The notes under the pieces: generated by a model
What the model saw: the letters and a program-made list of their open reading frames with translations, nothing else
What the model was told of the DNA's origin: nothing
The model's database searches: none
Translations under genes and position numbers: made by a program
Shown: positions 43,956 to 47,388 of the stretch, one piece after another
Layout of the letters: each line of letters starts with the position of its first letter
How positions within the stretch are numbered: the stretch's first letter is position 1
Origin: a virus
Direction: 5' to 3' (one strand)
DNA length: 49,009 bases
IMG/VR virus record: IMGVR_UViG_3300009164_000114
Span: 1-49,009 of that record

Positions 43956-45236
43956 TTACATTGATGTTGATTCGATATGAACTGTCTTGCCCACGTCAGA
44001 TGTCGCGGACTTGTTGTCGAGGATGCACCACAGGGTAGGCACATGCCATGTACCCCATGACCCACCAAGATAGCCATCGGTCAAGATGATCGCGGCTTGT
44101 GGCTTGATCTGCTTCTCACGCAGATACGTTGTCACGCACTCAACCATCGTGCCCCCACCTCCTGCGGGTTTGGTTGATGTAGCGATACTGTCCAGTTGAT
44201 CTTGGGTGTAGTACTCGTCACGACATACTTCTGTGTCCCAATACAAGAGGCGCACGCCGGAGGGTCGTACGGCTTTCGCAATGGCAGAGATTTCCCCTAG
44301 GAACTGTCCTAGTTCACGTCCACCAATCGAACCCGATGCGTCAATGGCAATCACCAACTCACCCACGGTCTCACTGATACCGCTTGGCAAATAGATGTTC
44401 ATACCAATGAACCTACGGTTAGGTCTGCGCCACGTTGAGTAGTCGTTGCCCTGACATGTAGCGGTTGCGAACTCACGCAACACCTCACGCCAGTTGACCT
44501 TGGCTTGCAAGACTTCATCGAGCATGCGGTTGCCGCCCGATCCCAACTTACCTGCCAACACGTTACCCTGACGTACGGCTTCATCGACAGCGCGTTCCAC
44601 TTCCTTGCGCTCTTCCTCAGTCATCTCTTGGGCACCTTCCCAATCGTGCTGATCCATCGTCTCGCCGTTGCCACCACCGTCACCGTCTTCGCCTTCGCCC
44701 TCACCGTTGCCTTGACCCTGACCTTGCCCCTGTCCCTCACCTTGACCTTGGCCCTGCCCTTGTCCTTGATCACGCAATAACTTGTATATCTCTACACAGT
44801 CCATGCCACGGTAGGCGGTATCGAGCAACCCGATCTTGGGCATCTTGATGAACCCGACACGTTGAGTCGTTGCGTCATAGTCCACCAACTTCAAGTTGAT
44901 AGAGTAGTCGCATGCCATGTTTGCCACACGTGCACTCTCCTCGTACATCCACAGGTACGTTGTGAGATGTTTGTAGATGACGTGATACGCCTCGTGCAGG
45001 ATGAGGAACCGTAGCTCCGCATCATTGAGGGTGCCCACGAATGTGCGGCTATACCATGAGTCAAGTCCGTTGGTCATCGCAGTGCGGCAACCCCTGAACC
45101 CATCTTCCACGATCTTGTGTTCACCGAGCATGAGTACACCCACGACTGGCGCATACTCTGTCTCCCCGATGATGTCTGCAAACGCCTTGGTTAGACGTTG
45201 CTCTTCTGTCAGTTGTTTGTTACCAAGCATTAACAT
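43956..45236 (-). CDS. VWA-domain / putative metallopeptidase protein (DUF2201/CobT-like)
   Basis: 426 residues. The N-terminal part has a zinc-peptidase-like LHEAYHVIYKH (HEAYH 81-85), then a Gly-Gln-Glu linker (GQGQGQGEGQ, about 157-190). The C-terminal VWA domain has the MIDAS motif IAIDASGSIG (299-303) and AAIILTDGYLGG. This order is that of VWA-like metallopeptidase (DUF2201) and CobT-type proteins, which act with MoxR/CobS-type AAA+ ATPases; such an ATPase is encoded directly upstream. Substrate in phages is unknown. A dyad lies 12 bases before the ATG and another inside the VWA-coding part. Confidence 0.85.
   Translation of the reverse strand: MLMLGNKQLTEEQRLTKAFADIIGETEYAPVVGVLMLGEHKIVEDGFRGCRTAMTNGLDSWYSRTFVGTLNDAELRFLILHEAYHVIYKHLTTYLWMYEESARVANMACDYSINLKLVDYDATTQRVGFIKMPKIGLLDTAYRGMDCVEIYKLLRDQGQGQGQGQGEGQGQGQGQGNGEGEGEDGDGGGNGETMDQHDWEGAQEMTEEERKEVERAVDEAVRQGNVLAGKLGSGGNRMLDEVLQAKVNWREVLREFATATCQGNDYSTWRRPNRRFIGMNIYLPSGISETVGELVIAIDASGSIGGRELGQFLGEISAIAKAVRPSGVRLLYWDTEVCRDEYYTQDQLDSIATSTKPAGGGGTMVECVTTYLREKQIKPQAAIILTDGYLGGSWGTWHVPTLWCILDNKSATSDVGKTVHIESTSM
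44297..44312 (-). promoter_or_regulatory. CTAGGAC dyad (copy 2), inside the VWA gene
   Basis: Minus strand CTAGGACAGTTCCTAG, six-base arms perfect. It encodes LGQFLG in the VWA domain, so it may be partly constrained by protein; it keeps the CTAGGACR half shared by all copies. Confidence 0.5.
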
Positions 45237-45247
45237 GTTTCATTCTC

Positions 45248-45263
45248 CTAGTCTGTGTCCTAG
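45248..45263 (-). promoter_or_regulatory. CTAGGAC dyad (copy 3) before the VWA gene
   Basis: Minus strand CTAGGACACAGACTAG, directly after the ATPase stop codon and 12 bases before ATG 45236. The second arm is degenerate, but its end also forms part of the Shine-Dalgarno (CTAGGAG). Confidence 0.6.
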
Positions 45264-46367
45264 TTACTTCTTCTCTGCGGCAAACACGTAGTTGTTTGCC
45301 ATGCACCACTGTGTGAACAAGCCGTTAGTCACGACCTCGTTCTGACGTGAGTACTTCTCACGGCGCACTTGCATGACGAACATGTTCTGTGCGTCCTTCT
45401 CCAAGCGAGCCATGTACTTCATCCATGAATCCATCCATGACTTCTCGATGGTCTGTAACGTGCGGTGCACCACCATACACGTTGCGCTCGGCGAGTCAGG
45501 AACCTTGGCGTTCATTGGGTCTTTCTTGATCTGCTCAAGAGATGGCAGTTGGTCAGCAACACGAACATACGCAAACAAGTTTGAGGCAGACTCCGCACCA
45601 ATGGTGCCGATGAGGGCAGACATCAATACCTTGTCAGATAACTTGTCGCGTATCTTCAACCAGTTGGATGCTTTCTCCAAGGAACGTGGTGTCACGAATG
45701 ACGTACGGCTCGGGTCGGCAGGGTGATAGATGTGCAAGTTCTCTTTGGGGTCACGGATGTCAGTGAACGATGCGAACAGTTGAGGCGTGTCTGCTACCCA
45801 TGCAATCATGGTGTGGTCGATGCCGTTGTTGATCGCGTAGTCTTCGATCCATTCAACATTAGTAGGTTTACGTGTGTTGACAATCGTCAAGCGGTTGCGG
45901 GCATGTGCAGGGAGCAAGTCACCCACACCTTCTGATCCAAGGTTGGTCGTTGCAAACACAATGCTATCTTTGTGTAACGTGTAGCTACCGATCTTGCGCT
46001 CAAGCATCAGACGCAGTAGTGCGTTCTTCACCGCAGGGTTTGCCTTGCCGTACTCATCAATCATCAAGATGATGGGCTTGCCCAAGTGCGCACCTAGCTC
46101 TTCGTTCGTGACGTAACGTACAAACGAGTCTGTGAGTGAGTCGGTCAGGTTGACCACGTTCGGGATCGTGATGTCACCCAAGTCCTTAGTCGTGCAGTCA
46201 AAGTAGCAGGGCGTGTGAGTCGGCAAGTCCTGTGCCAATACCTTGAGCATGGTTGATTTACCTGTGCCCATGTGACCTTGGACGAGGACGGTTGTCTCTC
46301 CCGAGTAGCGCACGAGGGCGGTAACTTCGGTGAGGTTCAGTGCGTATAGTTCAGTTGCGTTAGACAT
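45264..46367 (-). CDS. MoxR/CobS-like AAA+ ATPase
   Basis: 367 residues. Walker A GHMGTGKST (31-39), Walker B IILMIDEYGK (99-108), sensor 1 VFATTN (138-142), and HARNRL (155-160) with the arginine finger region. The C-terminal 170 residues include the AAA+ lid. MoxR-type ATPases remodel metalloprotein or membrane targets with a VWA partner, here the next gene. Cyanophage cobS genes are distant relatives by layout. The dyad at 46421-46436 lies 54 bases upstream. Hexamer formation is expected from the family. Confidence 0.88.
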   Translation of the reverse strand: MSNATELYALNLTEVTALVRYSGETTVLVQGHMGTGKSTMLKVLAQDLPTHTPCYFDCTTKDLGDITIPNVVNLTDSLTDSFVRYVTNEELGAHLGKPIILMIDEYGKANPAVKNALLRLMLERKIGSYTLHKDSIVFATTNLGSEGVGDLLPAHARNRLTIVNTRKPTNVEWIEDYAINNGIDHTMIAWVADTPQLFASFTDIRDPKENLHIYHPADPSRTSFVTPRSLEKASNWLKIRDKLSDKVLMSALIGTIGAESASNLFAYVRVADQLPSLEQIKKDPMNAKVPDSPSATCMVVHRTLQTIEKSWMDSWMKYMARLEKDAQNMFVMQVRREKYSRQNEVVTNGLFTQWCMANNYVFAAEKK

Positions 46368-46420
46368 GATTTGCTTTCTTCAGTTAAGGGATAACCCGGG
46401 ATTTAAGTTTGTTACACACA

Positions 46421-46436
46421 CTAGGAGATGTCCTAG
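46421..46436 (-). promoter_or_regulatory. CTAGGAC dyad (copy 4) before the AAA+ gene
   Basis: Minus strand CTAGGACATCTCCTAG, 54 bases before ATG 46367. The arms extend outward to CACACTAGGA / TCCTAGTGTG (10 bp), the longest of the set, in a 115-base intergenic gap. Confidence 0.75.
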
Positions 46437-46482
46437 TGTGTTGTTCTTCGTTGCGCTGGCTGCTCGCAGCTTGTACACACTC

Positions 46483-47388
46483 TCACCATTTCATGTTATT
46501 GAGAATGGCATCGACCTTGGATTTGGTCTCAGCACGGAATGTGTCATCGTCACGCAGTGCGTCAGGGGATACCCCGAGCATTGCATCCTCAAGGCGTACA
46601 CGCATGTTCTCCATACGTTGATCGCCTGTGATGTTGAACTTGGACAGTAGCCCAAGCATGTCACGTACGTTGTCCACGAGGGTGTCGCGGAATATCTTCT
46701 TGTCGTCCTTGCCCGAGTAGTCGAGCTTGGCAGACATGTTTGAGAGTGCCTTGTATGTACGCTCCCACACGTCACCCATCGCAGACTGATATTGGTTGGC
46801 GTAGTGCGTTGCATATTGCTTGCGCAATTCCTCTTGTGCTTCGTGTCCGATGTTGAGTCGGAAGTCGCCCACTTCGGGAATCGGTGTCTGTGCATGACGG
46901 AAGCGGAACTTAGACGCGACAATCTCGACGGACGGATAGTCGTCACTGGAAAACAAGTTACCGAGTCTTGCCTGTGCTTGGGCTTGCGCCCATCCGTATT
47001 CCTGTACGAACTCATTGACCAATGCAAAGTACTTGTTCTCCGCTTCGGTCAGTAGTCCGTAGTATTCGGGGAACATGGAAGTCGGCAATAGGCGCACGCC
47101 TAGGTCTGACCAAGGCATCGTCAGGTGATAGTGGATGTTGGTACGTGTGTGGGCGATGTGCTTCTGAACGGCATCGAGTGTCGGTGAGGCAATCAGCTTT
47201 TTGTGGAACGCACCCGCATCATCTGACGCACCGTTGGCGGCAGTCGTTTCCTTGGTCGCCTTGCGGTCGAGCTTTCGTGCAGTCCAGTTACCGATGCTGA
47301 GTTCGGCAAACATGGCAGACGATGAGATTGAGGGAGCCGTGACTTGAGGGGTCTCGGCGGCGAGGTGGTTTAGCAGTTGGTTTTCCAT
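46483..47388 (-). CDS. Phage protein linked to AAA+/VWA pair (DUF3150-like)
   Basis: 301 residues from ATG 47388 (GGAG upstream). AELSIGNWTARKLDRKATKE, RTNIHYHLTMPWSDLGVRLL and RLGNLFSSDDYPSVEIVASK define a mainly helical family that I recall as DUF3150 and that recurs next to CobS-like ATPases in phages; this memory needs checking. It lacks transmembrane segments and catalytic motifs, so it may be the adaptor or target of the ATPase. Promoter and dyad lie upstream. Confidence 0.65.
   Translation of the reverse strand: MENQLLNHLAAETPQVTAPSISSSAMFAELSIGNWTARKLDRKATKETTAANGASDDAGAFHKKLIASPTLDAVQKHIAHTRTNIHYHLTMPWSDLGVRLLPTSMFPEYYGLLTEAENKYFALVNEFVQEYGWAQAQAQARLGNLFSSDDYPSVEIVASKFRFRHAQTPIPEVGDFRLNIGHEAQEELRKQYATHYANQYQSAMGDVWERTYKALSNMSAKLDYSGKDDKKIFRDTLVDNVRDMLGLLSKFNITGDQRMENMRVRLEDAMLGVSPDALRDDDTFRAETKSKVDAILNNMKW

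Follow-up and report, generated by a model that had tools for sequence, protein, structure and literature searches.

A MoxR-type ATPase, a metallopeptidase-VWA protein and a DUF3150-like protein: a possible remodelling machine shared by phages and plasmids

Three adjacent genes in the early block

The DNA considered here is a 49,009-nt stretch (the window) of the IMG/VR virus record IMGVR_UViG_3300009164_000114, and the region of interest, positions 43956-47388, holds three adjacent minus-strand genes. They specify a zincin-like metallopeptidase/VWA protein of 426 aa (43956-45236), a MoxR-type AAA+ ATPase of 367 aa (45264-46367) and a helical protein of 301 aa (46483-47388), a divergent member of the DUF3150 family by the homologue and fold matches given below, for which a role as adaptor or third subunit is proposed. 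The three reading frames lie where an initial annotation had placed them, on the strand it had given, and the motifs it had listed, GHMGTGKST and DEYGK in the ATPase and HEAYH and DASGS in the VWA protein, are all present. Genes for a nuclease, DNA polymerase, exonuclease, helicase and primase share the minus strand with the trio, with the structural and lysis genes being on the plus strand; from this gene content the trio is taken to sit in the early/replication block.

In Pfam the ATPase matches AAA_5 at 25.1 bits (cut-off 22) and AAA at 27.7 bits (cut-off 21.2), with bpMoxR at 12.4 bits falling below its cut-off of 27, and in PHROGs it belongs to phrog_1297 (E 2.4e-46). Walker A, Walker B, a sensor 1 asparagine, an arginine finger and a sensor 2 arginine, the features by which a MoxR AAA+ protein is recognized, are all there. 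Among 20 diverse sequences G31, G34, G36, K37, D104 and N142 are invariant, E105 is kept in 18, and R159 and R228 are each kept in 19. The top profile match in the PDB is Midasin (4.8e-43), whose MIDAS domain is also among the top structural matches of the modelled VWA protein.

The VWA protein has strong matches to DUF2201_N (96 bits, cut-off 23.2) and DUF2201 (59.8 bits, cut-off 26.4), so that the MoxR plus VWA-metallopeptidase reading of the initial annotation stands for both genes, and it falls in phrog_1314 (E 3.8e-84). The label carried by phrog_1314, in PHROGs and in many phage records, is 'HNH endonuclease', though its Pfam domains are DUF2201_N and DUF2201 (metallopeptidase, VWA-like). 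A zincin-like metallopeptidase domain (residues ~11-161) is followed by a low-complexity linker (158-197; modelled at pLDDT, the predicted local distance difference test score, of 36-43), a conserved segment (228-290) and the VWA/MIDAS domain (294-421). HExxH, D110, DxSxS, T363 and D387 are invariant in 17/17 diverse members; in a larger set of 49 the MIDAS is intact throughout and HExxH is missing from one plasmid-type sequence, the reading frame of which is doubtful. Residues 261-290 are among the most conserved (0.80-0.85), yet reach a pLDDT of only 52-59 when the protein is modelled alone, as would be expected for a region whose folding depends on a partner.

The third protein by itself has no convincing family match in Pfam or PHROGs. 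Its relatives are more forthcoming: in a set made up of the window protein and 49 homologues, two of these from other phages, 43 of the 50 match DUF3150 (PF11348) at E<=0.1 (best 2.8e-7; the window copy is not among the 43), and a profile built from the homologues finds many DUF3150 proteins of Desulfobacterota with E from about 1e-59 to 1e-3. The helical character noted in the initial annotation is borne out by an AlphaFold2 model (52 sequences), which is made up largely of helices, two of them long, at a mean pLDDT of 82.6 and a predicted template modelling score (pTM) of 0.49. With Foldseek this model matches a viral protein named DUF3150 (8.3e-18), and among solved structures there is no convincing counterpart by sequence or by fold (best fold E 0.31). 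On the homologue matches to PF11348 and the fold match, the 301-aa protein is identified as a divergent DUF3150. A known defence family was also considered for the trio proteins and set aside, PADLOC having yielded weak P-loop matches, none of them convincing.

Linkage of the three genes in phages and on plasmids

An IMG/VR scan with the window ATPase as query returned 217 related stretches, from which 80 loci were kept, with linkage being counted where the contig was long enough on the relevant side. Within the uncultured ~60-kb phage clade so delimited, a homologue of the 301-aa protein is encoded upstream of the ATPase gene in 70 of 71 testable loci and the VWA gene lies downstream of it in 69 of 69. 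The third partner suspected in the initial annotation is supported by this linkage and can be named, and the search for the conserved set in other phages that it had proposed gave a positive answer.

Outside the clade the trio occurs in Synechococcus phage MinM2, where small genes are interspersed, and on Caballeronia, Simplicispira and Rhodovastum plasmids, where the motifs are intact. The order on these plasmids is ATPase-DUF3150-VWA instead of the DUF3150-ATPase-VWA of the phage clade, and identity to the plasmid trio is 20-31%. When one plasmid DUF3150 protein was used to scan genomes, 33 of the 36 loci returned held ATPase, DUF3150 and VWA genes in that same plasmid order; nearly all are from Burkholderiaceae and they are mutually related, so they count as one lineage more than as 33 independent cases. 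Several loci of Desulfobacterota have a classical DUF3150 gene flanked on one side by a CobS-like ATPase gene and on the other by the gene for a CobT-like HExxH/VWA protein, these trio proteins matching the CobS and CobT models weakly, and plasmids pCAR1 and pGSUB1 have the same CobS-like, DUF3150 and CobT-like arrangement, the third gene of pCAR1 being named NorD. The VWA partner in this CobS/CobT-flavoured version (pCAR1, Desulfobacterota) is longer than that of the window. The Burkholderiaceae/Rhodovastum plasmid, pCAR1 and Desulfobacterota trios have their three components in common with that of the phage, encoded side by side or almost so, and their Walker, HExxH and MIDAS-type motifs are intact.

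Plasmid records with a DUF3150 match number 1,172, and 984 of these plasmids are conjugative, though the matches are mostly over part of the length and the neighbours were checked in few. In a sample of 399 Pseudomonadota genomes the DUF3150 profile found one, namely that which had seeded the sample, and so the trio module is rare there.

A proposed machine and its alternatives

The ATPase-VWA pair, treated as of unknown role in the initial annotation, is not new to virology. In jumbo phages (group 2.2) a MoxR AAA+ protein accompanies a VWA protein that carries a metallopeptidase fused to its N-terminus, by description the same fusion and the same partner as in the window, and an assembly role was proposed (Iyer et al. 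2021, PMC7824862); no DUF3150 was described with that pair, whereas the clade considered here has a third gene almost without exception and plasmids, too, carry the trio. Archaeal tailed viruses and cyanophages have an AAA+ and VWA/MIDAS pair that was reported under the name 'CobST' (PMC8651126). The window resembles that pair and cellular CobS/CobT in these two components and differs in having no match to the CobS or CobT models, no CobN, and DUF3150 as a third partner. MoxR-vWA ternary conflict systems (PMC7159879) likewise combine MoxR and VWA proteins with one further conserved protein, but there it is VMAP or iSTAND and here it is DUF3150, with the VWA protein of the phage bearing in addition an N-terminal metallopeptidase domain. 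No mention of DUF3150, as the conserved third component of MoxR-VWA pairs or otherwise, was met with in the literature searched. Prior knowledge is of the pair in phages, and what is new is DUF3150 as its conserved third component together with the link to plasmids.

The best-studied model for a mechanism is NorQ-NorD of Paracoccus and Jhaorihella, where a VWA lever works on a MoxR ring: a finger segment adjoining the VWA domain reaches into the pore, ATP hydrolysis rotates the VWA domain and the linker to the N-terminal domain is stretched (PMC13036017). The phage protein has the same order of N-terminal domain, linker, finger segment and VWA domain. NorD has not been described with a zincin domain or a small third partner (PMC13036017), and its target, cNOR, is without counterpart in a phage.

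The reading we favour, with a probability only a little better than even (about 0.55), is that the trio constitutes one ATP-driven, NorQD-like remodelling machine that acts within the cell in the early/replication phase, and that it is neither a virion-assembly chaperone nor a complete cobaltochelatase. Gene content, integrity of the motifs, near-invariant linkage within the clade, the plasmid trio, position in the early block and the failure to find CobN or a ribonucleotide reductase large subunit in the window and seven relatives all support it. The MoxR protein would form a ring on which the VWA protein, by analogy with NorQ-NorD, would dock as a lever, and the conserved segment beside the VWA domain may fold against that ring as a finger in its pore. 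The flexible linker would tether the N-terminal zincin-like domain, for which peptidase activity is predicted, and DUF3150, a helical protein, could serve as a coiled-coil adaptor for binding the substrate or presenting it. And what would the substrate be? Presumably a complex that phages and plasmids alike have to face, such as one of host defence, one of host DNA transactions or the replication complex of the element itself; a host or replication complex as target is a possibility. That viruses and bacterial plasmids have the trio in common suggests a remodelling machine of mobile DNA rather than one for B12 synthesis or particle building.

Several observations count against this reading. 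MoxR-VWA pairs are present in hundreds of phage records, usually under the labels 'HNH endonuclease' or 'hypothetical', and there are pairs without recognizable DUF3150 in N4-like nACB1, Vibrio D505 and Rhizobium RHph_TM3_14A; with many phages having the pair on its own, DUF3150 is not required by every one of them. Even within the clade one member (L038) is without a DUF3150 gene, and in the 39-41 kb examined of the related Pseudomonas phages KPP25 and Rollin none of the three genes was found. Conversely, four loci (L165, L170, L172 and L093) have a DUF3150 gene near a different AAA protein and no VWA gene, with DUF1257 where checked (L165 and L093), and so DUF3150 can have other partners. 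The finger, lastly, is proposed from the order of segments in the sequence and from pLDDT values, and from nothing else.

Pairs without DUF3150, and DUF3150 with another AAA protein, would fit three early genes that act separately and are kept together by operon inheritance, the DUF3150 protein then being unrelated to the ATPase-VWA pair, and in the phage clade neighbours could be held together by common descent alone. It is the recurrence of the trio, at low identity and in differing gene orders, in a distant cyanophage, on Alpha-, Beta- and Gammaproteobacterial plasmids and in Desulfobacterota that makes this improbable. A target in virion maturation is now the weaker of the two proposed in the initial annotation, the other being remodelling of a host complex. 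It has in its favour the assembly role proposed for the jumbo-phage pairs (Iyer et al. 2021, PMC7824862), interaction data for p618 and p892 of Acidianus two-tailed virus (ATV; PMC4124505), from which an assembly role was inferred, and a conserved HExxH that would be compatible with a maturation protease. Plasmids with the same trio make no virions, however, and in the phage the three genes are grouped with those for replication on the strand opposite to the structural genes and share the dyads of the early region, considered below. On balance a virion-assembly chaperone or maturation protease is unlikely.

More unlikely again is that the pair joins a host CobN to raise cobalamin production, as was proposed, on the same domain logic, for the viral CobST pairs mentioned above (PMC8651126). 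The weak matches of the Desulfobacterota trio to the CobS and CobT models lend this some support, and those models are not matched by the window proteins. No CobN was found in eight records, the window and seven relatives, all possibly incomplete (the search was positive in five control genomes), so the check that the initial annotation had set for itself leaves no plain cobaltochelatase, in agreement with what it had supposed. In the same records no ribonucleotide reductase large subunit was found, and the idea that a B12-dependent enzyme of this kind connects the trio with nucleotide metabolism of the phage was set aside; the conserved third protein that is present is not CobN. The eight records are possibly incomplete, and a CobN of the host may still be there to be joined.

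The remodelling machine may be given a sharper, and tentative, form: MoxR, DUF3150 and VWA proteins might be a hitherto undescribed three-component machine of phages and conjugative plasmids that dismantles or inactivates a host complex, of defence or DNA processing, soon after DNA entry, its genes in this phage clade forming part of an early regulon marked by palindromic operators, all of which change together from one phage to the next. Irrespective of that form, naming DUF3150 and finding the trio on plasmids weaken the virion-assembly and vitamin-B12 readings and point towards a role that mobile elements have in common. With pCAR1 as an example, the plasmid trio opens the question to tests in cultured systems, and with DUF3150 matches as widespread in plasmid records as they are, any answer would have wide reach.

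Palindromes and neighbours in the early region

The initial annotation had given each of the three genes a CTAGGAC dyad of its own. Dyads are indeed far above chance in the window, with 18 strand-hits at <=3 mismatches against 1.1 expected, but the copy before the VWA gene is degenerate and dyads belong to the early region as a whole. The dyad CTAGGA-N4-TCCTAG of the ATPase leader is at 46421-46436, 53 nt before the ATG, and that of the 301-aa gene at 47432-47447, 43 nt before the ATG; the copy at 45248-45263, 11 nt before the ATG of the VWA gene, has 3 mismatches and one half only intact (CTAGGACACAGACTAG). Further copies are at 47716-47731, at the start of an upstream small open reading frame, at 48318-48333 and at 42318-42333, and others precede other early genes or lie within genes, as at 44297 inside the VWA gene. 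At <=1 mismatch CTAGGA-N4-TCCTAG is confined to 42.3-48.6 kb of the window and to 42.4-50.6 kb of G001, a record of 60344 bases that the window closely matches over the compared loci; the window seems to be an incomplete record, some 11 kb short, of the same kind of phage. With copies spread over the whole early region an element specific to the trio was discarded, as were terminators or RNA hairpins, there being a T-run at some dyads only and terminator counts not above those of shuffles.

Counting the window, 34 scanned sequences carry at least three copies of one 16-bp palindrome, the sequence of which varies between phages. Many related phages (L008-L089) each have their own palindrome of 16-18 bp repeated before early genes, positions being similar and sequences different: TTATCA/TGATAA, TTAGTG/CACTAA, TTAGTC/GACTAA, TTACGG/CCGTAA, TTAGGG/CCCTAA and CCTGAC/GTCAGG are among them, and the palindrome of one relative was not found in seven other records. 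Shuffled sequences gave a palindrome family of two once, and of three never, in 249 trials. Of 30 sequences examined by gene, the window among them, 23 have a copy in the 250 nt ahead of the ATPase gene and 17 have one as close to the VWA gene; for the 301-aa gene the figure is 18/28. The palindromes look like a fast-diverging operator set that changes together with its regulator, and the layout of these putative operators appears comparable to that of mycobacteriophage stoperators (named in PMC9283540 and PMC6550527).

A candidate for that regulator, from its position and the reading of its sequence, is a 142-aa helix-turn-helix (HTH)-like protein (41878-42306), the gene for which is preceded by a dyad; the protein is clearly recognizable in close relatives only. 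The dyad in question, that at 42318-42333, is 11 nt before the gene start and inside the 3' end of the reading frame for a VRR-NUC/Holliday-junction-resolvase-like nuclease (42310-42612, minus strand; phrog_93, 2.1e-16). This nuclease is a recurrent neighbour in the relatives, as are a 163-aa protein (42566-43057, minus strand) and a 319-aa protein whose gene follows immediately on the VWA gene (42984-43943, minus strand), and the latter two have a similar short C-terminal stretch, 38% over 42 aa. A strong sigma-70-like promoter match (11/12 with TG) at 48441-48413 on the minus strand is directed toward the trio, as a match to consensus only. Far from the trio, the virion region includes a gene for a 2288-aa protein (23871-30737) with an LPD39 domain match of 9e-16.

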